DNA of 64,000 nucleotides from Ulota crispa. Lineage: Eukaryota > Streptophyta > Bryopsida > Orthotrichales > Orthotrichaceae. Under the pieces are notes generated by a model. The model saw only the letters and a list, made by a program, of their open reading frames with translations, was not told the origin of the DNA and ran no database searches. A program made the position numbers and the translations under genes. Where the stretch lies: the NCBI GenBank assembly GCA_963920765.1, contig OY987249.1, forward strand, positions 7,750,817 through 7,814,816, in the 5' to 3' direction. Below, piece after piece: positions 1,746 to 54,975 of this stretch (its first letter is position 1; every line of letters begins with the position of its first letter).

Positions 1746-3125
1746 CCACCAAAGCTGCCACATGGTCTTTTTATGGTACTTGGTGCGAATAGCAGACACA
1801 ACAATTTGCTAGAGCCCTTCGCATCTCATGATCTGGTTTGTGATCTAGATTCCTTCTATCATTTGCAATTGTTCATGACTTTGTATGATGTGGAGAGACG
1901 CTCACAAGTAAGTTAGTTTAAATGTTTGCATTGTCTACTCCTCTTTTACGAAGAAAATACATGTAAGTAATTGCCAATTTTATAAAGACCACTATTTATA
2001 TTGTCTATAATTTTCGTTTTGAGTTTGATAGGATGACTTTCAAAGGGTTTCTGCATCATCACATCCACTAGCAACTTTGCCAACGTTTCAGGACCCGTTC
2101 TCATGACCTCTAGACACTTTAGACATAGTGTCAAGCCAAGTTGTTGGGATATGTCTTTTGATGTACTATCACTGCATCTTAAATATACTGACCAGAAAAT
2201 TGTATTTCTATTTTGCCCTATCCATATTGTTCGTCTTAACCCCTGAAGGCCCCTTGGGCTCTGGAGATATGGTACCAAATACGGTTGCAACCAATATTCA
2301 AAAATTTGAATCTGCTAGAAATTAAGTATTACAACCATACATATTGAAGGACTGTATGATGGTGGGTGCATAAAAAAAATTTGGAAAAGCCTCAAAACAA
2401 CTCAAATATGTATGTACATACGAACGTACATACGGCCGCAAAGGGCTTTCAAGCCGTTTAGGGGTTGATGAACAGTTTCAACAAACTACAATCTTCTTCA
2501 AAGTGTTAAAATCCCCCAAGAGACGGAAACATCATTTGCGTCAAAAAAAAATTGTAACTCTGCATTTAATTGCTAGACTTTGCATCTTATCGCAATTTCC
2601 TTTCATTTGTGGAGAAAGTTTGAATAAATGAAGTCGGAAGTTTTGTATTCAAGGTATTCAGGATGGTCACTATATAGGCATTTGAGTTATATCATGGCTG
2701 TGTTGTGTAGGGTGGTGTCCAAAATGTTGAAAGCTCCTATGCAGCAAAACTGGAAATAAGTGGACGAGCGGCTATTGATCCATTTCCATGACCTTTTGAA
2801 GAAATAGAAAACGGACCTAGTATTGCGCACACGGTATGCTTTATTTTACAGGGAGTTTTTGGCTTCTCTTTGTGATGCTTGGGTTTTTTTAATTCTCTTT
2901 GTTGTCAACACCAAAAATTTAATATCTCCTTTGCTTTTGTCATTTATCAGGAATGCAAGCACGTGAACTTATCTGGATGAATCACCGTGTTTTTGCCTGG
3001 AGATAATACAGCAAGGGTCACTGGATTTGATAGGTTCAAGCCATCGACGAAGTGAGGGAAACATAGCGGATCCTTTCTCATGGCCTCTTGATGCGTCCAA
3101 TCAAATCATGCCTGATATTGACTTG
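1746..3125 (+). pseudogene. Decayed multi-exon gene with repeated DPFxW-type motif
   Basis: Four exon-like blocks lie behind plausible acceptors. They are 1746-1835 (30 codons open, ending LEPFASHDL, then GTTTGT), a block from 2032 (reads QDPFS, stop, PLD), 2711-2833 (41 codons, reads IDPFP, stop, PFE, then donor GTATGC) and about 2951-3125 (ends ADPFSWPLDASNQ, then donor GTATTC). The motif DPFxWP recurs; in two blocks the Trp codon TGG has become TGA. The last block also has a TGA near its start. A TTAA-type element (2240-2464) sits between blocks two and three. The family is not recognised; repeated exons around an acidic motif suggest a low-complexity or regulatory protein. The stops and the insertion make a dead gene the simplest reading. 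Confidence 0.45.
2240..2464. mobile_element. TTAA-flanked miniature element, 225 bp (subfamily shared with 54976-55186)
   Basis: The left end is TTAA-CCCCTGAAGGCCCC; the right end is CGTTTAGGGG-TTGA, so one base of the right target copy has changed. The interior, including a run of ATGTACATAC-like bases and the phrase TTGAATCTGCTAGAAATTAAG, is closely matched by 54976-55186. It lies inside the decayed gene. There is no coding capacity. Confidence 0.7.
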
Positions 3126-3179
3126 GTATTCTACGTTATTATTCTTCACTGCAATAAACATTGCATTTAAGTTGCCTCA

Positions 3180-5125
3180 ACAATTAGGTTGTGTTACCTT
3201 AGAAAGTTACCTCATCACTCATCATATGATCACTTGGAGGCGCATGCATCTTTTTAAATATTAGGGTTTTGCATTGTTTATGACCTCAATGATGTTAGTT
3301 TGTTTTTTGCAACATTATTGTTGTTGTCAAGCAGTTAAAATCTGTTTATGTTGTAATAATTATTAATGAAAATTATTGTAATATGAGTAAATATTCATAT
3401 AGTATAAAATTTCAAAAATTAGTGTGGAGCAACCTAAATGCACTATATAGTGTAGCAAATATTTGGCATTTTCCATTTTTAGCATTTCTCATTTTTTAGC
3501 ATTTCCCAACTTTTGGCATTTCATTTTTGTTCTCAACCAGTTTTTCTTAAACCTACACTAAATGTTGTCCATGTTTGTATTATAACTCTCCACTTTTTTT
3601 GAAAATTTTACTGATTTTTTGTAGTTTCAAAGTTTAGCTAGCTTTTTGCATTTTAACCAACTAACAATACACTAGTTGCATCTTCCTGAGCACATTGTTT
3701 TGGGTCCGTCCATTGGCTAAGGGGCGCCCACAATCAATACGTAGGAAGGAAGCCTAACCAAGAGCCAATTCTTTAAGTCATTTTTTTCTTTTTGATTTTG
3801 TTTGTTGGCCTGGTTGATTCAACGTGCAAACACAGACTGGACTTTTTAAAGCTAAGGTGGAAGCACCTATAGCCAATATTGCCGGCCCCATACTCAATTA
3901 ATCCCTAAAGGACCAAGCCCTTTTTTCTGCCAAAATTACTAGAAATTATCACTTTTAGAAGGTTTAGAAAAAAGGGATTTTATGTTTTGTTTTTGGGAAA
4001 TCTAATCGTAGGATCTTGGCCCAAACTAGAAGAGGTACTTGTGGGAAAAAAAGTAGCTCCTTCCAAATGGAGAGGAGTGAGATATTTACATCTAAAGTGA
4101 AAAAATAAGTTTTTTTCAATGCTGCCCAAAAATTTCAGAAGCTTTTGTCCACTCTTATAACAAAAAAATTGCTCTACCCAAAGTTGCGCTTTATTTTTTC
4201 CATGTAGGAGATCAAGTTAGGTATGTGTGGGAGAATTCTCAAATCAATTGGAACTATACAACACATGGGGAAAAATAGTAAGTAAAAAGAAGTAAAGAAT
4301 GAGTCAAAACACTAAATTGTTAAGAATTTAATTATGGAAATGAAAAATGCAAATCCCAATGGTGATAATGTTGTGATAAACAATCTACTTCCTTTGGTTT
4401 GATTTTTTTCCAAAATATTGAAAATTGAGTAAAATAAGGGACTTCAAAGTTTATTTTAGAGTAGAGATTCCATAACTGCCCGCAAACAAAAACTCCTTGT
4501 AACTTTCATGTCATTGATTGAGATTGAATGATTCAAAGCTTCTCATGAATAAAAAAAATCTAAAGAACCAATTTCAAATTTGAGTTTTAAAAAAATTAAT
4601 TTTTAAAGAAGTTCTTGGGCTACCCGGATGGCAGTCCTCCCAAATTTTTTGAAATTCATGCATAACTTCTTCGTCAAATGTCGGAATGAAGAAGAAATTA
4701 GATGCCCACATAGATCTTTGAATTCCCCACCTTTAATAAAAGTTTAAAAAAATCACACAAAGTAGTTTAGCCATAGGTACATGCCCAAAGTCCAACCTGT
4801 CCCCCAAAGGGACAACGGTCCTTCAGGAGTTAACAGGGTGCGCTATTTTTGATATCAACAATGATGGGTGTATTAGAATGCATTCTTTTGTCCTTTTCAA
4901 AATTAGGACCACTTAAATCATACCACATGCCAAAGTGAAGTAGGAAGTAATGAGCAAAAGTAGTTTGATTATTATCAAAATTACATGAGTTTAGAGGTTG
5001 GTAATGGGTTCAAACCACTTTCTGACTCCCAAAATCTTTAATAATTTCCATTTTTGGCAAATAAAATATCCAAAAAAACCAAAATTCCAAGATTTCTTAT
5101 CTTCCTATACATTTAAGCTTCAATA
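3180..5125. repeat. Dispersed repeat, inverted partner of 55345-56362
   Basis: Apart from the 3902-4829 insertion, this stretch reads as the reverse complement of 55345-56362. Shared landmarks include the GGCCCCATACTCAATTA region, the CAATGATGTTAGTTTG region and the CATGTGATCACTTGGAGGC-like end. Related 75-bp sequences occur at both ends (about 3180-3255 and 5214-5290) in direct orientation, possibly marking an older element's boundaries. No transposase or other coding frame is seen. Confidence 0.6.
3902..4829. mobile_element. TTAA-flanked element, 928 bp, with matching empty site in the window
   Basis: The ends are TTAA-TCCCTAAAGGACC (target copy 3898-3901) and GGTCCTTCAGGAG-TTAA (4830-4833). 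The related inverted repeat at 55.6 kb lacks the element. Read on its minus strand it runs ACTCAATTAGTAGGGTG, against ACTCAATTAA, element, TTAACAGGGTG here. A single TTAA-like site has therefore become two, as expected for a 4-bp target duplication. The interior is about the same length as, and related to, 43708-44642, 47198-48132 and 51912-52840. It encodes no protein. Confidence 0.8.
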
Positions 5126-5289
5126 TTGATCCACACAAAGAAAGGCTATACTTTCTTTGGGTAGACCCAATTTCCAACAGTCCCAACACTAAATATTGCA
5201 TTTTCGTTACCTTGACAATTAGGTTGCCTTACTCTAGTAAGTTAACTCATGACTCATCACTTGCCCACTTGGAGGTGCATGCAACTCTC

Positions 5290-6182
5290 TAAGGGCGGCT
5301 TCACACTATGGCCAAAGGTCTAGAGGTCATCGGTCTGCGCCAATTAGATTGCACAAAACCAAGAGTCCGGCCACTCAACCCTTCACATTAGAGGCCAAAC
5401 TCCAAAGGCCATCATCCTCCAAATGTCTACATGGCAGCACTTTATCATCCAAGGTTGACGGCCTCTTGGCAATAGTTTGGGTCAAGCAAAAATGGAGACC
5501 CAAACTATGGTTGAGATGCCGTCACATTGTTTTCATAAAATAATCAAAAGCTCACAAGATCTTGGCCATTGGATTTGGAAGGTCTAATAAATGCTATGGC
5601 TTTGGACTTTGGGCTTGGCCTTTGGAGGCTTCACACTATGGCCATTGAAGTTGAGAGGCCATGAAATTTATGACTTTGGACTTTGGGCTTGGCCTTTGAA
5701 GGCTTCACACTATGGCCATTCAAGTTGAGAGTTGTGGAAGCTCATTGCCAAGAGTTTGGCCTTTGGACTTGGCCTTTGGAGACTTCACACTAAGGGCAGC
5801 TAAAGGTGTCAAAAACAATAAACACCATATTAGGTAAATTGGGAAAATAGGGGATCCCAATTTGTACGTCACTTGGATCCAGAGAAGTCACCTTAAACCA
5901 GATTTGAAGGTATAAGATTCAATCTCAACCACTAAGATTTTTTCCCTTGCAAATTTCTCCTCTCAAGTGACGACACGTGTACCAAAAAGAAAAACAACTT
6001 AATTTTAGGTGATCCTAAAACCTTCAAAAGTCCCAAAAATTACTCTTTTCCCCAATTTACCTAATATGGTGTTAATAGTTTAATACCTATTTTCAGCTCA
6101 TTTTGTTGGCCTCTCACCAAAATTTGGCCACTCAATCCCATGGCCTCTCCACTTGGCCGGTCATAGTGTGAAGCAAGCCTAA
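5290..6182. mobile_element. Terminal-inverted-repeat element with internal tandem copies
   Basis: The ends are inverted copies of GCTTCACACTATGGCC on the left and GGTCATAGTGTGAAGC on the right. The same GGCTTCACACTATGGCC phrase also recurs internally near 5625 and 5700. A unit of about 74 bp containing TTTGGACTTTGGGCTTGGCC is repeated in tandem at about 5600-5747. No target duplication could be fixed. Another element (5817-6077) is nested inside. Confidence 0.5.
5817..6077. mobile_element. Nested miniature inverted-repeat element, about 260 bp
   Basis: The left end reads AACACCATATTAGGTAAATT and the right end AATTTACCTAATATGGTGTT, an inverted repeat of about 25 bp. It lies in the right half of the 5290-6182 element. 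No coding frame. Confidence 0.6.
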
Positions 6183-16998: not shown

Positions 16999-19900
16999 AT
17001 GGTGGGGGTTTTCAAGATTGTGCTCTTAGGAGACTTTGGAGTTGGAAAAACAAGTATTCTCACTTGCTTATTGGCTAGTCCAATGTACAAGTTTGAGCCA
17101 AGGCATATATCCACAACTAAAGCGTATCACCGTTCCCATCTCATTCAAGTATTGTACACATGTTGTTGCGTTCAATGGATTGGTAGTGAAATTGATTTGA
17201 ATGTTGGTTTTTGTTGTCAATGTTGCAATTGCACATATGTTTTGTATATTGTGCTAATTCATTTGGATAAAAATAACTTATTGAAAGGAATGAAATACAT
17301 CTAGAATTGTAGAATGTATAGTATTGTAAGGAATGCTATAAAAATTGCAAGTAAATCTCTTGTTGAGGATAACAAATAGTTTTACTCTTTTAATAGGGGA
17401 TCAATGTATAAAAAACTTTGAAAGAGATTTGTAGGTTTGTCCTATTTTTTGTTGAATTTGAAAAATGCAACATTAAAGAAAATGAGTAACTTTTGAAATG
17501 TTTGCTTTTTCCTTCCATTTTTTTTGTAGATAGTCAATGGATCAAGAATGATTCAAAAACTTTTATTAAGTGCTCTACATGCCATATCAAAGTCTTTCCT
17601 TTTGTAACTTAGAATTTGTCTTGTATTTCTAATTTATGACAATAATTAGTCAAGAAAACAAGTGCTAATTCTATTAATTTGCAAGTAATTGTTTTGTTAA
17701 AATTGAGGTTTTATAATGGAAATATATTCTTACTAACAATATTGGGATGTATATTGGGATGTAAAGATACAAAGCATGTTTAAACTAGGGTGAACTTAAT
17801 ATGTATATCAATCATACAGTCATTGCAATCACTACATCCCAAATCACTACATCCCAAATCACTACAACAAAATGGGCATTTTATGACTTTAAGTTATGAC
17901 TGTTGTGAGTCATTCAGAATTATGGATGACTCATAACAATCATAACTCAGAGTCATAAAATGCTCATCTTGTTGTAGTGAATGTTTTTATTGTTTAAAAA
18001 GTAATGAAGAAAACAAATTATTAATTCAAAAATGCTAGGCAAAGAAGATTTAACAACAACAATTCTAGGGACCATGTTTGACGCCTTCTTTAACCATATT
18101 TTAATTACAAAAGAAAATTGAGATTGTATAGCGTCATGGTAATCTAGGGTTATTCAAATATCTTGCACCACTAGAAAAAAATGTGTCTAGCTTGAACAAT
18201 TTGTCCACAATAATTGCAAATGTTCACAATGACTATACAATGACTCAATTATGGTTGTTGTAGACATTTGCAAACTAGTCAAGCCACATTTTTTTTCTAA
18301 TATGGGTTTTTGAAAATATGTTTTTTCCAAACATGAAGTGGCCCTATCAAACAAACTTCCTGTTGCTTTAAATTAACAAAATTTTCAACTTTAGTTTGGC
18401 CTTAGTTGTGGCCATTACATGAGAAGTGAATTTACAAGGGCCAAATTAGTTTATAAACTGAAATTTGAAAGAAAAAAAAGGGAAACTCCAAGAAAAAACG
18501 GAGTCAAGAAAATTTTGTTTCCAATTATTGCATTTTTTTCACTTCTTTAAACTACCTATGAGGAAGACATAAAACAATACCTATTAAACATGGGTTCCAT
18601 TTTTTTCATAATCAAATTTTCAAAGTAGAATGCTAAATAGTAAGCGGAGTTCCATGAGCCATGAGCCTAGATATTTTGTCAAAAATGTTGAATTTCACCC
18701 ATACACATGTACATAGGGCCTAATAATTGTGCATTATAAACGTTCATCTCTTGAAAAACTTGCTTTTTAACCCTTACATGCCTAAGGTATCAAATTCTAA
18801 TGGTTTTTACACTAGAATTTGGTGCCTGAGGCACTTAGGGGTTAAGTTTTTCCATTGATTCTGAGCTCAAATTTGGGTTACCGCTCACATAGTCTTGGCT
18901 CACCACTCATGGGCTCACCGTCTTACGCTCACAAACTAATGTCGCCCAATTTTCAATGACCCATTTTTCATGAAATGGTCCCTTCTTTTAACCCTTGAAC
19001 TCCAAATGGGTGGCCATGCCTGCCCTCTACAGTGGTATCTACAATGTTGTGGCAGGTGCCCACCATGAAAATATTGTTTCTTAAAGTCGCAAAAGTCAAT
19101 AGTTCATGGTGCAATTGGTGCCCTCATGAAAATTGCAAAAAGAGTAGCATGGGACCTAACACCGTGGCTCTGAAACTTCTCACTATTTGGGTTATCAAAA
19201 AATATGAATGCCTTAGCTGAGGTTATTTTTTGCTTTCCATGTGATAGTCGTGGGTGACAAAGTGATGGTTGTGGGTGACCGGCATGACGGTTTTGAGTAC
19301 CCATCTCACTATTTAAGAACCAACAAGCCTTGTTTTTAGCATCTCTTACACATGGTTCTTACAATTTCAGTGATTTTGGACTTTGAAAAATCTTTGTGAA
19401 TGGATGCTTGTAGTTGGAACCTTGAAATTGATGCCAATATTTTTGGTTTCCACTTCCTTACTTATAGTATTTTTTTTCAAAGTTAATCAATTGTTTTACC
19501 TACTACAAAACCCTTATTTCCATGCTTATGAGTGCACCTACCTTATCTATGATCACTTCTACAAAAAATTCAGGTGAGAAACTACTTTTCTCTACAATGC
19601 AAAGTGTCTTTTGGAGGCCAAAGGACAATTTTTGTCCTCGTCGACGTTTAACCCTTGAACATCGGATGGGTGGCCGTGCGTAGCCTTTATGACAGGTGCC
19701 CACCCATTAAAATTTTGTTTCTTAAAGTTGCAAAAGTCAACAGTGCATGGCGCCCTCATGAAAAGTGCAAGATGGGCAGCTTGGGACCTAACACTATGAC
19801 TCTCAATCTTCTCACAATTTAGGTTGCCTAAAAATATGAATACATCGCATGGTATACTTTTTTGCCATCCGTGATGGACCAAGTGTTTATGATCACTTCT

Positions 19901-20603
19901 GAAAAAAATCAGATGCAAAAAAATCAGGTGAAAAACGAATTTTTTTTGAATCACAAACTCTTTTTTCCAGAGGCAGAGGACATTTTTTGTCCCCTTCGAC
20001 GTTTAGGGGTTAAGTGTTAAAAAACACTTAATTAGAGTGTGAATTTTGTGAGCACTTGTTTTTGCAAAACCCTAATTTCACAGAGTTTATTTTTTGTTGC
20101 CATTTTGTCAGGTGAACGGGGAGACCATCAATGCCGACATTTGGGACAGAGGAGGGGGGTGCACGCCGGACGACGACATTTGTCAGTTCTACCGAGGAGC
20201 ATTAGGAGCCGTGGTGGTGTACGACGTGACAATGCGGAACTCCTTCGACCGGGTGGACAAGTGGGTGGAGGCGGTGAGGAAATCCGTCGACTCCGAGGTG
20301 GTGATCATGCTGGTGGGAAACAAGGTGGACATGCAACACTTGCGATGTGTGTCGATGGACGAGGCACAAGCGTTAGCAGAGAGAGAAGGCATTTTCTTCA
20401 CAGAAACGTCGGCTTTGGAGTTGACGAATGTGTGCGAGGCGTTTCAGAGGCTTGTGACGGAAATCGTTCCTGTGCTTGAGCGGAGGAGGATTCGTGCTGC
20501 TCATGACAGTGACACTGATGATGGAGGCTCTGATGATGACGGTCTTATTTGTATTCAGAACAAGAAGCGGAGGCCTCGAAGACAGTGCTGTTGCGGATCG
20601 TAA
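16999..20603 (+). CDS. Atypical Rab11/RabA-like small GTPase, both switch regions diverged
   Basis: Two exons, 16999-17148 and 20112-20603, with a phase-0 intron of 2963 bp at the usual RabA intron position, give 213 residues, normal for a Rab. Kept: P-loop GDFGVGKT (11-18), NKVD (120-123), ETSAL (148-152), the YRGALGAVVVYDVT core and a Cys-rich end (CCCGS) suited to prenylation. Lost: switch I reads TTKAYHRSHLIQ instead of a TIGVEFATRTIQ-like block, and the DTAGQERYR switch II reads DRGGGCTPDDD, removing the catalytic Gln. Length through these regions is unchanged, so this is substitution, not a splice error. The ATG has a good context (AAAGATGG) and an in-frame TGA just upstream. Exon 2 is much more GC-rich than its surroundings. 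Guanine-nucleotide binding looks possible; normal effector binding and hydrolysis look doubtful. It may be an atypical functional Rab or an early pseudogene. Confidence 0.8.
17860..17979. mobile_element. CACTA-type miniature hairpin element, 120 bp
   Basis: The ends are CACTACAACAAAATGGGC and GCTCATCTTGTTGTAGTG, flanked by the 3-bp target copy AAT on each side (17857-17859 and 17980-17982). The whole unit folds back on itself. CACTA ends with a 3-bp duplication are the signature of the CACTA (En/Spm) superfamily. It lies in the intron of the Rab-like gene. A degenerate relative starting CACTAGAAAAAAATGTG is at about 18168-18300. Confidence 0.75.
18771..18841. mobile_element. Very short TTAA-flanked element, 71 bp
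   Basis: TTAA-CCCTTACATGCCTAAGG on the left and GCCTGAGGCACTTAGGGG-TTAA on the right, forming a hairpin of nearly the full length. It lies in the Rab-like gene's intron. Confidence 0.55.
18992..19647. mobile_element. TTAA-flanked element, first of two head-to-tail copies
   Basis: It begins TTAA-CCCTTGAACTCCAAATGGG and ends in a TTGTCCTCGTCGACG-type end next to TTTAA. It shares its first part (GTGGCC, GGTGCCCACC, CTTAAAGT, GGGACCTAACAC) with the next copy but carries extra interior. The TTAA at 19648-19651 serves both copies. Confidence 0.5.
19652..20009. mobile_element. TTAA-flanked element, second head-to-tail copy
   Basis: It begins TTAA-CCCTTGAACATCGGATGGG and ends CGACGTTTAGGGG-TTAA (20010-20013). 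It ends about 100 bp before the acceptor of the Rab-like gene's second exon, so it may affect splicing or branch-point use. Confidence 0.6.
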
Positions 20604-22745: not shown

Positions 22746-25700
22746 TCACCCTAACTTCAACATTTTGTTGGTTTGATTTCCATAAAAATGATTTGCACGT
22801 TGAACTATTATTTGCAACTCAAAATTTGCATTGAATCTACTCCCAGAATCTACTAATGCCACATAATTGTTTATTTGAAACCTAATGTGTTCATTTTTTT
22901 TTGATGCATCCTTGACAGGAATTGGATCTACACGATATCTAAGGCTCAATGAAGGCAAGAATGTGTACTTCCTATCCAGCTCTAGGTATCTGCCCTTTGG
23001 ATATTTCTAACTAGTCTGTTACCATAGCTAGTTTATTTTCTACTTCTTTGGAGAACGGACAAAAGTCAGCCATGAGAGGAATTTGGAGAATTAAAATATA
23101 CACCAATTTTTGATTATCTTATTAGATAAAATTTGGTGCATTTAATCTTTTTGTTGTACGTCATTTTCTTTTAAATATCAACTAGTGATTTGATCAATTT
23201 TATTGGCTGAATTTTTTTTTGATAGTGGTTTTTCTTAGAGATCATTTGCTGGAAAACAAATGTTTTGAAGTCGGTAGCTATGATTATTGTTTTAGTAAGG
23301 AATGTGTGTCATTAAATTGGTAGATGAAGGCATACTAGTTGGTTTTCTAAGGTGATGACGGTTTTGTTTGTAGGAGGAAGGGCATCGAGGCATTGGGTTA
23401 TAGAGAGAATGATGCAAAAACATATATGTTACACATTCTTTGGCACAAGAAGAGCACCAAATTCAAGAAATTGAATAATAAAAAGCAAAATTACTACTTT
23501 TGAAAAGAAAAGAAGTGGACCTAAAATCTTTTATACCCTAAAAGTAGACAATGTGAATGTAAAATTAGTTGCACCAAATTGTACTTGAATGGACACTTAT
23601 GGAGAATATCATTTTCTTACAATTGTTAAAAGCTTAATGTGTAAAACTCATTTCTTGAAATTGCTTCTAAATTACAAAAGACATATTTTTGAAAGTGATG
23701 TCCTTTTAGTCTTCATTACATAGAATAGTAGTAGAAAGACATATTTTAGATTTATGTTGCTCAAATGGAATTTGATAAGAGAAATTTTCTTTGTAAAATT
23801 TGATAGATGATTTTTTTAATATTAAAAGACAAAGAGGTAGTGCTCAATCCAAAACCATGCAATGCACTTTCTTATATGTTAACCTTGTTCATCTTTATAG
23901 ATCACAAGTGCAAGCTTGAATTCTAGACATATGTAGATAGAGCACATATATACAAAAACATGAGTTTTCATCCATCCAAGTTTTGCTAGATTCTTGTGTT
24001 AGATTTCTTGTATATGTTTAGCATGGATCTTAAACATTTTAATGAAATAATTCCATGGCACAAAGAGTACAGATTTTACTTATTTATAAAAACAAAAAAA
24101 AATCAATTCAAACAAATTACACAAATTTGTTTAAACAATAATAACTAAAAAAATCTTTAAGAATCACCAAAATTAGATCCTCACATTATGAATACAAAAA
24201 CCAATTATTTGAAAGTCATTAGTCATTTCATGATCAACTTTACAAAGAATTTAAGATTATTTTAGATAAAATCTATTAACCCCTAAAGGACCGTTGTCCC
24301 TTTGGGGGACAAATGGGATTTTGGGCATGTACCTATGGCTAAACTATTTTGCGTGATTTTTTGAAATTTTTATGGAAGATGGGGAATTCCAAGACCTAAG
24401 TGAGCATCTACATTTTTCTTCATTTTGACATTTATTGAAGAAGTTAAAAATGAAACTCTAGAAAACGACGCTCGACGAGCAGCAAAAAAACATTTTTTAA
24501 ATTGCATTTTTTCTAAAAAAAATTATGAAATAGGTTCTTTAGACTTACATGTACGTAGGGAGCTTTGCATCATTCAATTTTGATAAATGAGATGAAAGTT
24601 ATAAGAAATTTTAGTTTGCAGGTAGGTACAGTTTCTCTCAAAAGCATACCTACCCGCAAACTAATTTTTTTTATAACTTTCATCTCATTTATCAAAATTG
24701 AATGATTCAAAACTCCCTACATACATATAAGTCTAAAGAACCTATTTCATAATTTTTTTAGAAAAAATGCAATTTAAAAAAAGTTTTTGTGCTACCCTCA
24801 GAGCGTTGTTTTCTAGAGTTTCATTTTTAACTTCTTCAATAAATGTCAAAATGAAAAAAAATGTAGATGCTCACATAGGTCTTGGGATTCCCCATTTTCC
24901 GTAAAAATTTCAAAAAATCACACAAAGTAGTTTAGTCATAGGTACATGCCCAAAATCCCATTTGTCCCCCAAAAGAACCAACGGTCCTTTAAAGGTTAAG
25001 ATAAAATGATGAGTGCAATGACGGATTCAATTCAACCATATGGATATGATTTGTGAATCATGATAAATCTTATTTTTAGATAATTTTATGAACATTCTTC
25101 CATCAGCATTATATTTTTGTAATTTTTAAGATTTTCCCCGTTGTCTTAAATGAGTTAAAAAGTCAAGGCTACTTTAAATTATCCAAACATATGAAGTGGT
25201 GATGGTAAAAATAAGGCTACTTTGTACTTCCAATCATTGATGTAAATCGCAATTTAAAAACATATTTTAATGACTACTTTTCAACAAAAAAAAAAAAGAT
25301 TGTTCTCCACATACAATAGCAATAATTGGATCTACAACGATTTCAATGAATTTTAGGAAAAAAGCCCAAAATTCCTCCTAATTTTGATTAAAATTTGAAC
25401 TTTAACTATCTTCACAAGATTTTTTGCGCATCAAGCTTACAAGTTATGTTCTACTTGCCGGTACTTTTAAAAATGAAGTTTTTCTTTTATGTTTCCTTTC
25501 TAAAATTGGTTTGGATTGACACTTTTGACATGAATAATGTAGATTTTTGAGATTAACAACATTCATTCTTTTGTAGCTACTTTAATTTTGTCAAATAAAT
25601 TTGGAAATTTGTATCAAATGAATGTTAGCCCCTAAATGCCCAAGGGGTAATGGCAAAACTTATATGCATTATAAAATGGTATTTATGTAACTTTGATGAA

Positions 25701-31700: not shown

Positions 31701-34700
31701 TACTATTTTTATTTTGAATATTTAATTAGGAAATTGATATGTGCACACTGGGGTTGATATTTGCACACCTCCTTGGGAGGTAAATTGTAGATTTCTACTA
31801 TCAAAAATCTGAATTTGAGAATTTTGAATTCAAATTTGGACTTAGAGATCATGGTTTATTCTAGAACCGTAAAAAAGTTTGCAATTGGACAACACCCAAT
31901 GAAAAACTTTATCTTTTTTTACAAACAAAAGTAAAAGTAACACTTTTTCCCCTAGCTAAGCTTTTTCACAAAGTGTTGTTTAATTGCAACTTCTTTTTAT
32001 GGTTCTAGAGTAAATCATGGTCTCTAAATCCAAATTTGAATTCAAAATTCTCAAATTCAGCTTTTTGATGGTAAAAATCTACAATTTACCTCCCAGGGAT
32101 GTGTGCAAATTTTAACCCCCGGTGTGCACATATCAATTCCCTTTAATTAAAATGGCCATCTACTTAAGACAATAAAACAGCCATTTGATATGAATCTAAA
32201 AACTCACAAATGGCATTTTTCTCGAATGTGTTCCCCAAAATATTCCATCAACATGTAAGTCCGACATAAGTTTGTTTTTATAGCATATCTGTCCATCTAA
32301 TAGAGAATATTTTAAAAATTATTTATACTTAGCTAAATGAAACTCGTTTATTATAACCATATACAAAATAGATTTGAAAGTAGTGAAAAACTATAAAAAA
32401 AATATCATTGGTTTTTATTTCAAACTGTTAATGATTGGTAAATCATTTTGTTTATCAAACTGAAACTACATATACACAATAAAATGTTTTCATGTTCTAT
32501 TGAATAAACTGAAATTGTACTCCTCAAGTTTTATCTTTTTTGAACTATCACAGAGCTAAATTATTCAATTTTCCAAATTTCCCAAAATTATGGTAAATAT
32601 AGGCATATCGATTAAGAACCTATTGGTAAGAAAATTACTGTAATTTGGACTCCAAGTTTTTATTTATAAGATCTATAATATGGAGATGATTAAAGAAATA
32701 CGTGCATGTAAACGATATATTTTGAACCTTAAAAAAATTGAACATGTGATATTCATATAAGCATGCAATCACCTTGAATTCTAAACAAACCATGTAACAT
32801 ACTCAAAAAAGTCTCTCCTTCATATACAATTTATGGCCTAGAGAGTGCCTAAAACCTTTGGGTCAAAGGTACTTGTGCCGTTGAAGGTAAGACAAGTTTT
32901 TTACTGGGGGAGTTTTTATATGATTCAATTAAAGAGGGGTTATTTCAAAATCTCAATTGTTGTGGATAGCATCGTAAATCACTTGTACAGCATATTTATG
33001 GAGAAATTTCATGGAGACCCCTGAGGTTTGCAAAGTTTTCATAGATACCCCTGCTTTTTCAGAAATATTACAATTATCCTTGGACCATAATTTTAAGAAT
33101 TTGTTTTGTTATGCATGTCCCTTCCTTCTCTCGTTGTGCACACACTACTTCTTTCTTGTTAAGCATACAAATAAAGGAAGAAGGGAAGTGGCATGCAAAA
33201 CAAAACAAAAGCTTAAAAATTACATGGTCCAAGGGTATTTGTGGTATTTCTGAAAAAGCAGGGGTATATATGAAAATGTTGCAAACTTCGAGGGTATCCA
33301 TGAAATTTTCCCTATAAGGTGAATAAATCAACCAAAAGAGGGTGAGAAAATTCCTTTAGAAATGCCACCAGATGAATTAATGAAGTCGGCATAGTAGAGG
33401 AATTTTTTTACTGTACCTATGACACCGAGAAAGCATGTGCCGAGCAATAATTGCTTCGTGGCTATCCCTAAAACTGGCCAACAAAGTGGGAAGTGTCGTC
33501 ATATCCACAAACAACTCTGTTACAATGCCAAACTTGAGATCAAAATGACAATTGTTCAACAAGGTGCAACGTTGCGGTACTAACAAAGAGCTGACAACCA
33601 GATGTATTTGCACGAAATATATTCAATCACTTACGACAGTGTGATAAACCCCCGTCTCTTCCAGCTCTTCCTGCTTCCTGATAATAATCCTCCAAACTCT
33701 GTTGCATGCAATCTCAATTATGGGACAGCTTTTGCATAAATGTGGATCTCATATTCCGCAAGCGTAACAAATAAACCAAGTTGAGTCATCATTCTAGAGC
33801 GCAAAATGCAAAGCGAACATGCCGATTTAAGAGACTTAAATCTTTTGCAATTACATGTAATCAAACTCATACAATTGAGATTAGGAGCAATTCCGCTTAA
33901 AAGACTCATTATCTTCAGAACATACAGTCATCAACTGAGTTCAAGTACACCTGCGGCCAGCCATAATGAATGACGTGAGAGATGTTGGGCTTGTGAATCC
34001 CCATCCCAAAAGCAATAGTGGCGATCACTACCTGCACAAAACAAAGTTCCTTTCGGAAGTGCTACTACTCTACTGTATGTCTTATCTGTAAGTTGCAAGA
34101 CTTTACAATAAATGAAGTAAGCGCAGCTCAATTTTCCAGTTCAATATGATAATTAGATGCATTATTTAATAATCACTGAATTCAAAAGTCCTTCTGTATG
34201 ACAGGAATATCAACCATGATTGAACTTCGGATACTCACCTGCAAACGATCCGCATGAAAGAGTTCATGGACTTCTCTAAGATGCGCCTTTGGCAACTGTC
34301 GTAGCCACGTACATAAAATGCAATGTGAAATAGTTTCATCAGAGGTAAAATCAAAGGCAGTGAGGAAATACAGATCTCAGATTCAGTTTAAAGTTTTATC
34401 GTACATTTATCTTCACATGAGGCTAAGTGCAGTATAAATCTGTTGAAGAAATGTAATAAACATCTCCGAATCATCCCGGTGGTGCCAACCTGCGAATGAT
34501 AAGCCATACTTTTTACGCCACGCCTTCGAAAATACGCAGCCAATTTATCAGTTTCGGTTCTCGTAGGCATGTAGATAATGCACGCTCCTCTGCGCCTCCC
34601 CAGCTTGTTTTTGATTCCATCATGTCGAATACCAGTAGAAAGTTTTCGACGTAGTCTCCTCAACTGATTACCACTATACCCTCTAGATTGCACTGCATAT

Positions 34701-40648: not shown

Positions 40649-40922
40649 AGTCTGTTACTAACTTACTAGTTCCCGCCGCCCCGAGATTGGTCCAGAACAG
40701 TCCAGGACTCCAGGCCCGTCGCTGTGGTGACAGGACGTATCAAATTCATCCGTCGCACTCTCATCCAGACTCTACACACGTCATTCAATATTTTCATAGT
40801 TTGAGTTTCATACAAAAAGTATTTCTTATTGGCATTGTATGGAAGCCAAAGGTACAAAATCCACAAGATGTGGTTTTCTTCTCAAAAAAAAGCTTGTGGT
40901 TGTCAAACACAAAATCTGTTAA
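40582..40922. repeat. sHsp upstream segment duplicated at 50756-51013
   Basis: The sequence from GTGGAAGCG (40582) through GGTTGTCA (40898-40905) and on into the next TTAA-type element is repeated at 50756-51013 and after 51895. The second copy lacks about 60 bp that here contain the five-unit heat-shock element. Shared text includes TTTCATAGTTTGAGTTT and CACTGTATGGAAGCCAA-like runs. Confidence 0.8.
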
Positions 40923-41503
40923 CCCCTAAAGGCCTAAGCTAAGTTTTCACCAGAACCACTCTAGAACTGCCATATATAAAACTGTCATTTCTATTACAAG
41001 TACCAAGTTTTAGGAAAAAAACATTTTTTGACACATGTAATTGTAAGATCTTGTACTACACTAGAATCAAAAGATGTGAAAACAAAATTCAGTAGTTTTC
41101 ACGATGTAGATTGTTAGATATTTGAGTTTGAATTGACAAAGTTTCATTTTTTGTCCCTGCAAAAATCCGGGCAGCTGCACTTCAAAAGGTCATACTTGTA
41201 TGAAAAAAATTCCAAAATGGTTGTAATTCTTTGGGTTTGTTCTTCAAAGCAAGTTGGGTATACACTTGAAAGTTTTCAAATCATTTGGAATTGTGCAACA
41301 CATGGAAAAAAAATAGCAAGTAAAAAGAAGTAGAGAATGATTCAAACCATTAATTTGTTAAGAACTTAATTATGGAAATGATAAATTTCAATCCCAACGG
41401 TTGTAATGTTGCAATAAACAATCTTCATCCTTTAGTTTTGTTTCTTTTCCAAAATATTGAAAATTGAGTAAAATAAAGGACTTCAAAGCATATTTTAGAG
41501 CAA
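40923..41503. mobile_element. TTAA-type element, right side cut off by the large palindrome
   Basis: It starts TTAA-CCCCTAAAGGCCTAAGC and runs parallel to 51912-52840 (GATCTTGTACTACACTAG, GGTTGTAAT, ATTGAGTAAAATAAAGGAC). The match stops after ATTTTAGAG at about 41503, where the large hairpin begins. The rest of the element is not seen beyond 48462. Confidence 0.6.
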
Positions 41504-43689: not shown

Positions 43690-43707
43690 GAAATCAATGA
43701 ACATTAG

Positions 43708-44642
43708 CCCCTAGAGGACCATTGTCCCTTTGGGGGACAAATGGGATTTTGGGCATGTACCTATGGCTAAACTACTTTGTGTGATTTTTTGAAACTTTTA
43801 TTGAAGATGGGGAATTCAAAGATCTGTGTGGGCATCTAATTTTTCCTTCATTCTGACATTTATTGAAGAAGTCATGCATGAATTTTGAAAATCATGGGAG
43901 GCCGGGCAACCAATTTTATTTTTAAAAATAATGTTTTTTTCAAAATAAAAATTTGAAATTCATTCCTTAGATTTATACATATGTGAAGAGCTTTGAATCA
44001 TTCAATTTTGATTTATGAGTGAAAAGTTTTAGTTTGCGGGCATGCACGGGATTTCCATACCTCCATTCCTTTTGCCTTTGGTGCATTACTTTTTTGAGCT
44101 CTTTGTGAATTTGTTTTTTGATTTCTTTTTTTTCCTTGTTGTAGTAGATTAAGATTCCTTGGTTTTCACCATTTGGATCAAAAGAATTCATATGTCTCAA
44201 TTTTACATAAATCCTCCAATTTTGCCTAGTATATATGCAAATTTCATGCCCTTACAGCATTGCAAGATTTTACAAAGTATGATCCACACCTCCAATTCAT
44301 TTGAAAAATCTCCCACACTTACCTAACTTGGTCTTCTACATGGAAAAAATAAACCTCAACTTTGCATAGAGCAATTTTTTTATTTATTTAGGGGCAATTA
44401 AAGGCTTCTGAAATTTTTGGGCAGCAGGGAAAAAACCTTTTATTCACTTCAGATGTCAATATCTCACTCCTCTACATCTAGAATGAGATGGTTTTTTCTC
44501 CACAAGTACCTCCCATAGTCTAAGACAAGATCTTATGGTTGGATTTCCAAAAATAATTGTTTTTCCTACCTTTCTATTCATTCCTCCAAAAGTGGCAGTT
44601 TTTAGTAACTTTTGTTGAAAAAAGGGCTTGGTCCTTTAGGGG
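43708..44642 (-). mobile_element. TTAA-flanked 935-bp element, left arm copy
   Basis: The ends are TTAG-CCCCTAGAGGACCATTG and CTTGGTCCTTTAGGGG-TTAA. It is the mirror image of 47198-48132 and is related to 3902-4829 in length and interior. Two inverted copies at the far ends of the inner foldback give it the layout of a composite transposon. Confidence 0.75.
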
Positions 44643-45500
44643 TTAAGCAAATTATATCCATAAAAGACCTACATTTTTATTGCCATGGGCAATAATTGGT
44701 GCAATGATTTTGTAGATCATGTACAGTACATTCAAGCATCTTTCCTCAATTTTACAAAAGTCTATCAATTTCTTCTTAATGACTCAACATGATTTTAGCT
44801 GCCATAGTAAGAAATGCACTTTGCTTTAGAAGAATCATTTTGTAGATCATGTACAATACATTCAAACATCTCACTTGATTATACATAAGTTAATTAATGT
44901 ATTTATTTATAAAGATTCAATAGCCTAGTCCTGCCTAAATACCACATCCATGTTCCTCTAAAAGCAGAAAAATTTATTGAGATAAATTCTAATATTCCAA
45001 GTAGCATATTATTCAGCATCCGTAATACTTGCTCCCGTATTGGAGGTTTGAAATGAATATTAGAAAGTCAAATTTAAACGTTCTCAACAACGCATTTTTT
45101 GGAATTGAGGGTATGCTTAAGGGTGCAAAGGACTGGCCAAATCAGGTTCTTGCTTTGCACATTTGGAACTTGAATTCTTGAGGTCAAGTACGATGTTCAA
45201 ATGTTAATAGAAGAAAAATATCAACACCTATTAGGAGTTAAGAAAGTGAGGAATATGGCTCCTGAACGCCTTAGAAAAGGGCAATTCAAATTCTAATTGC
45301 CCCTTAGTGGATGCATAGAGGAGGAGAAATAGTTATAGTACTATTTTCAAAACTAATAACTCAAATAGTATTTGACTTAGTAGTTTTGAAGATAGTTCTT
45401 AAACTACTTCACTTCCTTGGTGTGCATCCATTGAGGGGCAATTAGAATCCAAATTGCCCTTTTCAAGTGTGTTTGTGAGCCCAATGCTTGACTCAATTAA

Positions 45501-45549
45501 CCCTTAAGGGCGGATGTGGCCGCTCAGGGGCCTAGTGGGCCCTTAAGGG
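45501..45549. mobile_element. 49-bp TTAA-flanked unit at the palindrome axis
   Basis: TTAA-CCCTTAAGGGCGG on the left and GGGCCCTTAAGGG-TTAA on the right, with about 20 unpaired bases between them. It sits exactly at the axis of the large palindrome. The same unit appears again at 46291-46339 because the sequence flanking the gap is duplicated. Confidence 0.6.
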
Positions 45550-45791
45550 TTAATTGAGTCAAGCATTGGGCTCACAAACACACTTGAAAAGGGCAATTTG
45601 GATTCTAATTGCCCCTCAATGGATGCACACCAAGGAAGTGAAGTAGTTTAAGAACTATCTTCAAAACTACTAAGTCAAATACTATTTGAGTTATTAGTTT
45701 TGAAAATAGTACTATAACTATTTCTCCTCCTCTATGCATCCACTAAGGGGCAATTAGAATTTGAATTGCCCTTTTCTAAGGCGTTCAGGAG

Positions 45792-45991
45792 NNNNNNNNN
45801 NNNNNNNNNNNNNNNNNNNNNNNNNNNNNNNNNNNNNNNNNNNNNNNNNNNNNNNNNNNNNNNNNNNNNNNNNNNNNNNNNNNNNNNNNNNNNNNNNNNN
45901 NNNNNNNNNNNNNNNNNNNNNNNNNNNNNNNNNNNNNNNNNNNNNNNNNNNNNNNNNNNNNNNNNNNNNNNNNNNNNNNNNNNNNNNNNNN
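45792..45991. other. 200-N scaffold gap with overlapping flanks (probable misjoin)
   Basis: Exactly 200 N. The 590 bp before the gap (45202-45791) and the 590 bp starting right after it (45992-46581) read the same in the same orientation, offset by 790 bp. The two contig ends therefore seem to overlap. Joining them would remove the gap and one repeat and leave a single palindrome axis. Confidence 0.85.
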
Positions 45992-47197
45992 TGTTAATAG
46001 AAGAAAAATATCAACACCTATTAGGAGTTAAGAAAGTGAGGAATATGGCTCCTGAACGCCTTAGAAAAGGGCAATTCAAATTCTAATTGCCCCTTAGTGG
46101 ATGCATAGAGGAGGAGAAATAGTTATAGTACTATTTTCAAAACTAATAACTCAAATAGTATTTGACTTAGTAGTTTTGAAGATAGTTCTTAAACTACTTC
46201 ACTTCCTTGGTGTGCATCCATTGAGGGGCAATTAGAATCCAAATTGCCCTTTTCAAGTGTGTTTGTGAGCCCAATGCTTGACTCAATTAACCCTTAAGGG
46301 CGGATGTGGCCGCTCAGGGGCCTAGTGGGCCCTTAAGGGTTAATTGAGTCAAGCATTGGGCTCACAAACACACTTGAAAAGGGCAATTTGGATTCTAATT
46401 GCCCCTCAATGGATGCACACCAAGGAAGTGAAGTAGTTTAAGAACTATCTTCAAAACTACTAAGTCAAATACTATTTGAGTTATTAGTTTTGAAAATAGT
46501 ACTATAACTATTTCTCCTCCTCTATGCATCCACTAAGGGGCAATTAGAATTTGAATTGCCCTTTTCTAAGGCGTTCAGGAGCCATATTCCTCACTTTCTT
46601 AACTCCTAATAGGTGTTGATATTTTTCTTCTATTAACATTTGAACATCGTACTTGACCTCAAGAATTCAAGTTCCAAATGTGCAAAGCAAGAACCTGATT
46701 TGGCCAGTCCTTTGCACCCTTAAGCATACCCTCAATTCCAAAAAATGCGTTGTTGAGAACGTTTAAATTTGACTTTCTAATATTCATTTCAAACCTCCAA
46801 TACGGGAGCAAGTATTACGGATGCTGAATAATATGCTACTTGGAATATTAGAATTTATCTCAATAAATTTTTCTGCTTTTAGAGGAACATGGATGTGGTA
46901 TTTAGGCAGGACTAGGCTATTGAATCTTTATAAATAAATACATTAATTAACTTATGTATAATCAAGTGAGATGTTTGAATGTATTGTACATGATCTACAA
47001 AATGATTCTTCTAAAGCAAAGTGCATTTCTTACTATGGCAGCTAAAATCATGTTGAGTCATTAAGAAGAAATTGATAGACTTTTGTAAAATTGAGGAAAG
47101 ATGCTTGAATGTACTGTACATGATCTACAAAATCATTGCACCAATTATTGCCCATGGCAATAAAAATGTAGGTCTTTTATGGATATAATTTGCTTAA

Positions 47198-48132
47198 CCC
47201 CTAAAGGACCAAGCCCTTTTTTCAACAAAAGTTACTAAAAACTGCCACTTTTGGAGGAATGAATAGAAAGGTAGGAAAAACAATTATTTTTGGAAATCCA
47301 ACCATAAGATCTTGTCTTAGACTATGGGAGGTACTTGTGGAGAAAAAACCATCTCATTCTAGATGTAGAGGAGTGAGATATTGACATCTGAAGTGAATAA
47401 AAGGTTTTTTCCCTGCTGCCCAAAAATTTCAGAAGCCTTTAATTGCCCCTAAATAAATAAAAAAATTGCTCTATGCAAAGTTGAGGTTTATTTTTTCCAT
47501 GTAGAAGACCAAGTTAGGTAAGTGTGGGAGATTTTTCAAATGAATTGGAGGTGTGGATCATACTTTGTAAAATCTTGCAATGCTGTAAGGGCATGAAATT
47601 TGCATATATACTAGGCAAAATTGGAGGATTTATGTAAAATTGAGACATATGAATTCTTTTGATCCAAATGGTGAAAACCAAGGAATCTTAATCTACTACA
47701 ACAAGGAAAAAAAAGAAATCAAAAAACAAATTCACAAAGAGCTCAAAAAAGTAATGCACCAAAGGCAAAAGGAATGGAGGTATGGAAATCCCGTGCATGC
47801 CCGCAAACTAAAACTTTTCACTCATAAATCAAAATTGAATGATTCAAAGCTCTTCACATATGTATAAATCTAAGGAATGAATTTCAAATTTTTATTTTGA
47901 AAAAAACATTATTTTTAAAAATAAAATTGGTTGCCCGGCCTCCCATGATTTTCAAAATTCATGCATGACTTCTTCAATAAATGTCAGAATGAAGGAAAAA
48001 TTAGATGCCCACACAGATCTTTGAATTCCCCATCTTCAATAAAAGTTTCAAAAAATCACACAAAGTAGTTTAGCCATAGGTACATGCCCAAAATCCCATT
48101 TGTCCCCCAAAGGGACAATGGTCCTCTAGGGG
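47198..48132 (+). mobile_element. TTAA-flanked 935-bp element, right arm copy
   Basis: The ends are TTAA-CCCCTAAAGGACCAAG and CAATGGTCCTCTAGGGG-TTAA (48133-48136). Same length as its mirror at 43708-44642. Compared with 3902-4829 it shares AAGCCCTTTTTTC, GAGGAGTGAGATATT and CCCAAAAATTTCAGAAGC. Confidence 0.75.
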
Positions 48133-48462
48133 TTAATGTTCATTGCTTTCAACATGCTAAACAACCATCATAGATTTTTTCATCCACCTTAGACCGCCAC
48201 TTTTCATCCATATTAATTTCCATTCATTGGCTCCAATGAATATCATTGATGTAATTCATCCACATCCTCCCATCTTTCAAATGATTACTGCACTTTAGAG
48301 ACAAATTGTGTTGCTTTAGGGAATTTTTTGTTGTTTCAAAACATCCAATCTCAAATTACAAAAAGTTTTGTTTCTCCTCCTACACTCTAAAAGGTCTCTT
48401 TTATTACTCACCGCTCATTGCTCACTACTTACCGTTCATTGCTCTTGTTCTAGCGTCATTGA

Positions 48463-51887: not shown

Positions 51888-51911
51888 GGTTGTCAAGAAC
51901 ACATATTTTAA

Positions 51912-52840
51912 CTCCTAAAGGTCTAAGCTAAGTTTTCACCAAAACCGCTCCAAAACTGCCATTTCTAATGTAAGCACCAAATTTTAGAAAAAAAAAAATT
52001 GACACATGTAATTGTTAGATCTTGTACTACACTAGTATCAAAAGATGTACAAAAAAAACTTAGTAGTTTGCACGATGTAGATTGTCAACTTTTGAGTTTG
52101 AATTGACAAAATTCCATTTTTGTCCCTACAAAAATCTGGGTAGCTGCACTTCAAAAGGTCTTATTTGTATGAAGAAAATTCCAAAATGGTTGTAATTTTT
52201 TGGGTTTGTTCTTCAAAGCAAGTTGGGTATACACTTGAAAATTCTCAAATCATTTGGAATTGTGCAACACATGGAAAAAAAATAGCAAGTAAAAAGAAGT
52301 AGAGAATGATTCAAACCATTAATTTGTTAAGAACTTAATTGTGGAAATGATAAATTCCAATCCCAATGGTTGTAATATTGTAATAAACAATCTTCATTCT
52401 TTAGTTTTGTTTCTTTTCCAAAATATTGAAAATTGAGTAAAATAAAGGACAAGTTTATTTTAGAGAAGAGAAACCATAATTGCCCGCAAACAAGAACTCC
52501 TCACTACTTTCATCTCATTGGTAAAAATAGAATGATTCAAAGCTTCCCATGTATACATAAATCTAAAGAATCAATTTCAAAAAACAAAATTCAAAAAATG
52601 TAAATTTTAAAAAAGTTTTCTAAGCTGCCCAAGTTGCTTGATGAGAAAAAAAAAACTACATATCATGCAATGACTTTTGAACCATGAAGTTAATATTTAT
52701 GAAAATTGTTGGGTCTCAAAGCTACTTCTTAGACACATCATGTGTGAAAATTTCAAAGAAAAAAAATGAAAAACCTATTGGTAGTGAGCTGCCTAAAATT
52801 GCTATGTTGCCAAAAAAAAAGGTGTTTAGGCCTTTATGGG
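51912..52840. mobile_element. TTAA-type element, about 930 bp
   Basis: The left end is TTAA-CTCCTAAAGGTCTAAGC; the right end is GTTTAGGCCTTTATGGG-ATAA, so the right target copy has one change. It is the full-length partner of the truncated 40923-41503 copy. No coding frame. Confidence 0.6.
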
Positions 52841-54975
52841 ATAATCCATTGTTGGGATTTTTATTTTTCAAAAATAATCCTCTGAAATTTGGCTTGCACA
52901 AAATCTTAGTGTAGTGTGAATTTCAAGCCATGTTTGCAATTTAAATCCATGTAGGGAATGTATCAAGTCTTTGTTGTTCATGACAATTGTGGAGATATGC
53001 CTAACATAATTTGGAGCATGTTGGCATTAATCAAGCAAAAAATGTTCACTGCATGTGATCAAAGGGGCTTGAAAACTTTGGACAAAGGTCAATTTTTTTA
53101 CTAACTTCAACTAATTGTATCTCTCAATCTGTATAATCAAACCTCATGAAACTTTCACTATGCCTTCCTACATAAGTCTAATACAAGATCTTAGGGTTAG
53201 ATTTGTAGAAGGAAAAAAAAAGACAATTTTTCTTAGGATCAAATTTTTGAAAATGGAAGTTTTGAGTCATTTTTGAGAAAAATATGGGCTTGTGCAACTG
53301 GGCATTCCAACAAAATATATGGGGTTTGCAAGGAAACTTTACATGGGCTAGCTTAAATTCTTTCATGATGTTGGCCAACATTTAGAAAGAGATTTTGAAT
53401 TCACTGGCAAAAATCCGGAATTTCTTGTTTTCAATCAATTTTTCATTGGACTGCACTAGATATTTTGTGTATACATACTATAATAGATTATAGTCGGTGT
53501 TTTTGTACAGCTTGATCAAATCTTGAAGTGGTGGTTTCAAATTCAAGTGATTCTTTTGAGATTTCAATCAAATGACAAATCACTAAGGTAAGAGGCTTGG
53601 GAATGGACCATCTGAGGGAAAGTGCACTTTTGTGGAAAAATTGTGGCAGCTTGGCAAAATGGAAATATTTTGGGTAGAAAGCCAAAGAAGAGATAGTTTT
53701 GTGGCCATTTGATTTGAAATTTCCTAAGTTAGTATGAATTAACTACAATTTTTCAAAGCAAAAGGTGCATAGGTAGCTATTCTTGATCATAGGTGGTAGC
53801 ATTCATGATGCAAAGGCGGCTTGTAAATGGAGCACATGAGTCCAAAAAGAAGCCACTACAAAGTCAAGAATGCTCCAATAAGGCTCTTTAAGCGTGCAAG
53901 CACCCATTCCATATTCTAATCTTCACATCATGATTGAAAAAAAAAAATTGTTTATTTTAGTATGACATGTATCTATATTATACTGAAAGACAAATCTAAA
54001 CACAACTATGACTAGTAAGCATACACAATAGTGGCTCATGTCACTCTCTTAAGTTCCTAAAAAACGGTGATTACACAAGTACAATTTCTGAACATAGAAA
54101 AATGTGACCTTTTTAAGAACCTTTGTGCATTGTTTTAGTGACTCTACATGGTTGGTTCAAAATGCTTAGTTTGAATTAGAGCCCCCTACCTTAAGTGCAT
54201 GTACTCCTCAAATATTAATGTTGGCATTGCTCTTCCTCATTTGTTGAGCCATGATGATGGACAAATAGACTTGCACGACACCCGATAACCCCTTGAGCAT
54301 CTTGCTAAGAAAATTTAGCATAACTCCAATATGAAACTTCAACACATTCCCTAATTTTTGGAAAGTTGAACAAGTAATCACATAATCCAAACTAGTCATT
54401 TTATATCCACCTATAAATCAAATATTTCAAACCAATCTAATTTCAAATCCAAGTAAATTTGTAAAATTCCCACCATTGAGAATCTCAAATTTGTCAATTT
54501 GGGCAGCACTTTACAATATGGATTTTGGATTTTGATGTAATTTTTTTCCAAAAAAACATTTACCTGATGCCTAATCCCATGAGATTGTGTCTAGACAATC
54601 TAGCCATACTTGATGGAAACAAAAAACTCCATAAATGGGAAAAAAATCTACAAATGGAAAAAACTCCAAAAGATATGGTCACTCAAAGTAATTGGATTCC
54701 ACTAGCTCCTTACTTTAGAGCTACAAAAACCTTGCCCAAATCAAGAAAAAAAAATGACACACAACCAAACTCCCTTGTACAATACAAGATATGGGAGCAC
54801 CCATCCCATCTACTCTCTAAGCCACTCCCTTCAATTGTCCAAAAACATTCTTCTCCTAATTGTTGAAAAATAGAATATTTTCCATATTCCTTGTAGAATC
54901 TAAAGCAAAGCAAGCACTTCAAGGAATAACAAGCCAATCAAAAATTGTTGGACTAGCAACTCCATTTGCACTTAA
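52841..54975. other. AT-rich spacer, no gene
   Basis: Several frames of 60-110 codons are open by chance (for example 54525-54866) but have biased, low-complexity content and no domain. No paired element ends were recognised. Confidence 0.4.

Follow-up and report, generated by a model that had tools for sequence, protein, structure and literature searches.

Short TTAA-flanked elements with piggyBac-type ends, and the transposase-bearing elements that share those ends, in a plant genome

The stretch of DNA analyzed here (64,000 nucleotides, called the window) comes from a 274.8-Mb genome in 157 contigs, whose ten largest measure between 41 and 16 Mb. The host organism is a plant, conceivably a moss. 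The window encodes a small heat-shock protein that matches Hsp16.9B (PDB 1gme, E 1.1e-40), which we take to be a wheat protein, and the genome contains six matches above the cut-off to the SAM_LFY domain, presumably a marker of the plant gene LEAFY (best E 1.2e-27; weaker ones could represent other SAM domains). The window contains the following mobile elements and related features, each given with its basis in parentheses:

2236 to 2468, plus strand: short TTAA element of the same family as 54972–55190 (right tetramer TCAA on the element strand)
3898 to 4833, plus strand: family A element, non-autonomous and piggyBac-type, 928 bp between TTAA copies (TTAA at both edges, genome copies, empty sites)
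18767 to 18845, plus strand: 71-bp element between TTAA copies (end pairing; 64–71 bp elements elsewhere)
19648 to 20013, plus strand: probable TTAA element (weaker terminal repeats)
24276 to 24999, no strand assigned: palindromic element with two like ends (arms 90–91% identical)
40919 to 41500, plus strand: truncated element, relative of 51908–52844 (sequence comparison)
43704 to 44646, minus strand: family A relative with TTAG as its left tetramer (inverted duplicate of 47194–48136 across a gap)
45497 to 45553, also 46287–46343, no strand assigned: not an independent unit, center of a larger palindrome (flanks are inverted repeats too)
47194 to 48136, plus strand: relative of family A (74–76% identical to the 11 family A copies compared)
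51908 to 52844, plus strand: TTAA element with interior sequence in common with family A (its right tetramer, read on the element strand, is TTAT)
54972 to 55190, plus strand: short TTAA element of the same family as 2236–2468 (end pairing)
55352 to 56398, minus strand: inverted paralogue of the family A target, with the empty site at 55631–55634 (one tetramer, TTAG on the element strand)
58421 to 60020, plus strand: 1.6-kb unit with ends CCCATTAAGGTCC (further end-like sites inside)
62440 to 62702, plus strand: one end and part of a palindrome-family arm (second end looked for, none found)
63655 to 63890, plus strand: TTAA element of 228 bp whose ends read CCCCTAAGCG (CCCCTAAGCGCC lies downstream of transposase locus L029)

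Ends were recognized by a CCCYT-like motif, and the range of end variants described below is biased for that reason. Allowing up to two mismatches, TTAACCCYTAAGG occurs at 23 sites in the window, whereas 100 shuffles averaged 3.5 sites and never exceeded 10. A looser end profile gave 20 left and 19 right ends in the window, which form 17 left–right pairs of at most 1.7 kb with 13 distinct right ends, some right ends being shared; 30 dinucleotide shuffles of the window yielded 0.27 pairs on average and never more than 2. The right end of 24276–24999 was seen in the end reading and lies below the threshold of this pairing. In the genome as a whole, the exact end TTAACCCYTNANNGNC occurs 42,149 times, compared with 92 for the reversed pattern used as control. 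Exact TTAACCCYTNANNGNC ends thus occur about once per 6.5 kb genome-wide, and 14 lie within the window. The window units, the copies fetched from elsewhere and the genome counts all have terminal inverted repeats starting with CCC or CCY, as piggyBac elements do.

At least 16 units of the window had been predicted to end in TTAA-CCCYTAAGG-like repeats, with sizes from 49 bp upward and unrelated interiors. Nine of the 16 positions are well paired (2240, 3902, 18771, 24280, 47198, 51912, 54976, 58425, and 63659), and the rest are weak, unpaired, mirrored, or non-independent. By the end profile, pairing within the window is weak for 19652 with 20013 and for 58753 with 59661, and no convincing partner end was found in the window for 18992, 25629, or 40923. 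The positions 43708 and 47198 are not independent insertions; they are mirror copies around an assembly gap, 2.1-kb inverted repeats that are 99.3% identical and flank the 200-N gap at 45792–45991. Either the assembly was joined at this place or the mirrored arms (43690–48150) form a genuine giant palindrome. The 49-bp unit at 45501, which had set the lower size bound, was rejected as an independent element, being the center of a larger palindrome whose flanks are inverted repeats too, and in L065 and L066 its copies are flanked by largely the same sequence. The interiors also proved not to be unrelated, as interior sequence is common to 3898, 24276, 43704/47194, 40919/51908, and 62440.

Two palindromic repeats of the window recur elsewhere. 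The one just described, with a CCCTTAAGGG core (45497–45553, L065, and L066), recurs with similar flanks and may be a further palindromic transposon family. The other, of about 430 bp, lies at 31721–32151 and has relatives of 76–84% identity in or beside the transposase loci L045/L012, L046/L022, L034, and L038.

Unit 3898–4833 starts with TCCCTAAAGGACC and ends, read on the opposite strand, with CTCCTGAAGGACC. Among 40 places scored from 8,323 first-look candidates, each covering at least positions 7–907 of the 936 and one being the query itself, there were 39 other family A copies, 87–92% identical to it. The identity between any two of 12 family A copies is at most 0.923 (median 0.897); 47194 is an outlier at 0.74–0.76. 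The repeat that the 3898 element entered (window 3144–5292) is itself dispersed.

When the joined flanks of 3898–4833 were used as query, 2 of the 40 places scored were its own flanks and 38 crossed the junction at 75–89% identity. The inverted paralogue in the window had been predicted to keep a single TTAA-like tetramer at 55631–55634, and it does, as CTAA on the plus strand and hence TTAG on the element strand. The junction was aligned in four target copies without the insertion, and their tetramers are TTAA (L067), TTAA (L072), TTAG (L068, the window paralogue), and CAAA (L071). These empty sites are uninterrupted paralogues within one genome and not excision products. Among the 40 ends of 20 fetched copies, 37 are flanked by TTAA, one by TTAG, and two by TGAA, the last two having been printed two bases off and read after the shift. 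Insertion was therefore accompanied by a 4-bp TTAA target-site duplication, as in piggyBac.

A search of the same genome with the piggyBac transposase domain DDE_Tnp_1_7 (PF13843) gave 120 matches, the best with E 1.3e-73, from the 116 places scored of 528 candidates, so that at least 116 places encode such domains; the same search of 14 control genomes gave no match. Stop codons are present in 110 of the 120 matches and absent from 10. Introns may account for some of these stops, which we count against present activity. The open reading frame at L042 matches DDE_Tnp_1_7 in Pfam with E 4.1e-67. Its PDB matches are piggyBat (E 2.6e-24) and piggyBac (E 7.6e-20), with alignment, to 6X67 among others, on TVDE, TDNFFTS, and GVDIVDQ. 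Over 31 translated domains, with a median identity among themselves of 35%, the three catalytic columns contained Asp in 28, 23, and 26 of them, the DDD arrangement of piggyBac. The Cys-rich C-terminal domain of piggyBac is represented, by a CxxC-CxxC pattern, 110–270 nt after the transposase domain in 21 of 30 loci (three of them with an internal stop), compared with one match in 90 control stretches; a stricter Cys-rich pattern was found in 3 of the 30.

Around 30 transposase loci no matching pair of ends was found within flanks of 1.5 kb, because the elements are longer than that (5.0–5.7 kb in the four read whole) and their ends vary. Both ends enclosing a DDE_Tnp_1_7 domain were seen in L039, L040, L045, and L046. 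Over 5.0 kb that include the transposase, the identity between L039 and L040 is 90.5%, and their homology extends from TTAA-CCCCTCATCGCC to within one base of CCCTTCATTGCC-TTAA. In L045 (5.7 kb) and L046 (5.5 kb) the transposase lies between CCCCTAAATGCC ends, one outer tetramer of L046 being TCAA. For L038, L025, L026, and L034 one end was read per locus, 3' of the transposase domain; the termini lie 1.6–1.8 kb after the domain and read CCCCTAAAGGACC in L038 and L034, CCCCTAAAAGACC in L025, and CCCCTAAAGGATT in L026. The search suggested in the original prediction for a transposase with the same ends as the short elements was thus successful, with CCCCTAAATGCC at L045 and L046, CCCCTAAAGGAC at L038 and L034, and close variants at L025 and L026. 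Among 12 further transposase 3' flanks, six had a usable end (one with TAAA), one was ambiguous, and five had none; an end search gave no end in L042 and no clear one in L043.

Short and long elements share more than their terminal motifs. The four loci with a single end read align with the family A relative at 43704–44646 at 77–78% identity, and the alignment reaches the terminus in L038, L025, and L034 and stops 88 bp short of it in L026. L061 (931 bp) and L062 (906 bp) are L045-type elements minus the middle: their first 552–554 bp or so match L045 at 84–85% and their last 86–136 bp at 75–80%. They were the only clear deletion derivatives of the L045 type among 14 short elements compared. 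A family of about 650 bp with 10 copies (L051–L060; 74–92% identical among themselves) resembles L045 and L046 at the ends only. The shortest independent copies read were four with 64–71 bp between TTAAs (L047–L050). For 18 short elements the printed 10–15 bases of flanking sequence look unrelated by eye, save those of L052 and L055, which both adjoin what looks, again by eye, like the end of another element. These elements have the properties of MITEs, in that they are without transposase, have ends in common with a transposase-bearing element, and exist as many dispersed copies. The short and long elements share ends and adjoining sequence, and the long ones carry a piggyBac (DDE_Tnp_1_7) transposase.

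Ends and transposases also co-vary. For 16 loci the distance between transposases was correlated with the distance between end motifs (Mantel r 0.65, a value reached in 0 of 9,999 permutations), and the correlation persisted when the set was thinned to 11 loci (r 0.44, 25 of 9,999). At 8 of the 16 loci, position and orientation were the sole basis for assigning the end, and one of these eight, L017, has TAAA in place of TTAA. The variants assigned by transposase lineage are CCCCTAAAGGAC, CCCCTAAATGCC, and CCCTTCATTGCC; those placed by position only include CCCCTAAGCGCC, CCCTTTAATGAC, and others. Because the variants differ between transposase lineages, the radiation resembles a group of parallel families, each made up of a transposase and its MITEs.

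These relationships bear on the possibility that two systems are present, the short elements having been moved by another TTAA-specific transposase and the piggyBac copies having merely received insertions. Short TTAA elements do adjoin transposase loci, for example in L039, as such an arrangement would allow. It is nevertheless highly improbable in view of the end-to-end homology of the two transposase elements L039 and L040, the retention of both terminal regions of an L045-type element in L061 and L062, the terminal regions that four transposase loci have in common with elements of the window, and the co-variation of ends and transposases.

A still less probable alternative is that the elements are of the Tc1/mariner type (Stowaway-like), for which the target would be the 2-bp TA next to a conserved base. 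Since TTAA is a palindrome around TA, the TTAA empty site fits a TA target as well and cannot by itself separate the two; counts of the outer bases can. The genome contains 4,241 occurrences of TTAACCCCTAAATGCC and 217 of VTAACCCCTAAATGCC, and none of either reversed control, so that the fourth base outside this type of end is T in 4,241 of 4,458 cases, and the target is therefore TTAA and not TA. In 235 kb made up of the window and transposase loci, selected without regard to flank, the 18 CCCCTAAA[AGT]G sites are preceded by TTAA (15), TTAG (1), ATAA (1), and TCAA (1). The outer position is T at 17 of the 18, with no skew one base further out. For two looser motifs in the same 235 kb, TTAA precedes 25 of 57 and 31 of 47 sites. 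In addition, it is PF13843 that is carried by elements with these ends.

Equally improbable are PIF/Harbinger (Tourist-like) elements, for which the target would be the 3-bp TWA: the TAA/TTA duplication given for Tourist MITEs in the passages seen of one review (PMC10004981) does overlap TTAA, but a 3-bp direct repeat does not produce TTAA on both sides, as is present at 37 of the 40 fetched ends, and the transposase found is DDE_Tnp_1_7. A TA or TWA target, or ends joining a Harbinger or Mariner family, had been named in the original prediction as the findings that would contradict it; neither the base counts nor the TTAA on both flanks gave such a result. The predicted reading, piggyBac-type ends with TTAA duplication, is instead supported by the flanks, the empty sites, and the transposase with the same ends.

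Five features that define piggyBac were looked for and all five were found: the TTAA target, ends starting with CCC or CCY, an enclosed DDE_Tnp_1_7 domain, the DDD residues, and the Cys-rich motif. On this comparison of sequences, the units of the window are almost certainly MITE-type members of several piggyBac lineages that would have been mobilized in trans by the transposases of those lineages. The long, mostly decayed transposase elements are most likely the sort that moved the short ones. The transposase would bind both ends of a short element in trans, the element would be cut out together with its TTAA, and the excised element would be joined into another TTAA by the hairpin mechanism of piggyBac, for which excision through TTAA hairpins is described in the sections seen of PMC7351741. 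Divergence between the sampled copies suggests that this movement was past rather than very recent. The maximum identity of 0.923 in family A and the 90.5% identity of the two 5-kb copies show no recent burst in the small part of the genome sampled.

The element at 24276–24999 is a palindrome of two like ends, both of which resemble the right end of family A. The arms were not derived from family A itself, to whose right end they have a median identity of 75.5%. When the whole palindrome was used as query, which ranks palindromes first, all 40 scored places matched at near full length on both strands. When one arm (from L073) was used, 25 of 40 scored places had both arms and 15 had one full arm, 7 of the latter adding a short piece of the other arm. 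Three of the single-arm places were read: L110 has a single arm, L109 has one arm and a 68-bp remainder of its counterpart, and an insert interrupts the palindrome L111. Twelve palindromes were examined, comprising ten fetched copies (L073–L082), that of the window, and one in L039 (530–1255). They are 721–728 bp long, and their center looks common by eye. In 10 of the 12 the two arms of one copy are sisters (branch support of 0.86–0.995 in nine and 0.21 in one), and the median arm identity is 0.90 within a copy compared with 0.83 between copies. Simple copying of a single ancestral palindrome should leave the two arms of one copy no more similar to each other than to those of other copies; hence either homogenization or repeated formation has occurred.

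Repeated formation would mean that one-armed copies are converted into new palindromes time and again at a hotspot hairpin, with no single mobile family and no homogenization. This could well be the case, although we rate it somewhat below an even chance. Separate origins would give the sister arms found in 10 of 12 copies, and one-armed copies do exist, as the 15 single-full-arm places and L110 indicate; on the other hand, both arms are present at 25 of the 40 places scored with one arm, the 12 copies agree in length and center, and a one-armed copy may be a later truncation (compare L079, a full palindrome that appears in the one-arm search as one full arm and a 46-bp piece). The other reading, which we hold tentatively and with more doubt, is that the palindromes of about 724 bp with two like ends form their own mobile piggyBac family, whose arms have been repeatedly homogenized within copies. 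As part of this same tentative reading, homogenization might take place at or near each transposition or through hairpin-templated correction, leading to concerted evolution of the two arms in each copy despite an ancestral center that is common to the copies. A search of the literature on palindrome arms gave nothing pertinent.

In the open-license literature, piggyBac in land plants, mosses, liverworts, and ferns appeared in repeat-table lines and passing mentions alone. The superfamily is listed among those of angiosperm MITEs in one review (PMC10004981) and named among those of plant DNA transposons in another (PMC10794571), in the excerpts seen of each. Repeat tables have a 'PiggyBac' line for C-Fern (1,230 fragments, 0.00% of the genome; PMC6890710) and for Stipa (1, 0.00% of the genome; PMC8319324). 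These lines share the superfamily label with the elements described here, for which the anatomy is given, whereas none accompanies the labels in the portions of those papers at hand. The text retrieved from a Physcomitrium transposon paper (PMC7466625) has no occurrence of piggyBac, and in that retrieved from a moss genome paper (PMC10619864) both matches to the word 'piggybac' are to 'expression piggybacking'.

The superfamily itself is known, and what is noteworthy here is the scale, the plant host, and the palindromic class. The natural diversity of piggyBac, one of the main transposons of genome engineering, is best known from animals. Diverged transposases, ends that track their lineages, and more than 42,000 exact ends together provide a natural experiment on the co-evolution of transposases and their ends. 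Such elements may also be a source of high-copy MITEs that plant repeat annotation misses or labels 'unknown'. Stowaway and Tourist MITEs are likewise abundant short inverted-repeat elements of plants, and the target duplication of Stowaway is TA. Both differ from the elements here in their duplications (TA or TAA/TTA) and, following PMC10004981, in belonging to the mariner or Harbinger superfamilies. Insects have piggyBac-type MITEs that are short, transposase-less, and flanked by TTAA; the elements here differ in having a plant host and in having been traced to transposase-bearing elements.

The piggyBac element of Trichoplusia ni and piggyBat (PDB 6X67/6X68 and 9C0F) have the same TTAA target, CCC-starting ends, DDD residues, and Cys-rich motif. 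A small palindrome near the end, seen by eye in the window, is also present in piggyBac, according to the sections seen of PMC7351741. Unlike piggyBac and piggyBat, the elements here have a plant host, lineage-specific end motifs, transposase matches that mostly contain stops, and very many short members. Finally, piggyBac needs asymmetric left and right ends (LE and RE) in cells, as stated in those same sections (PMC7351741), whereas the palindromic class has two like ends, and for this reason an abundant class of this kind is of interest under either reading of its origin.
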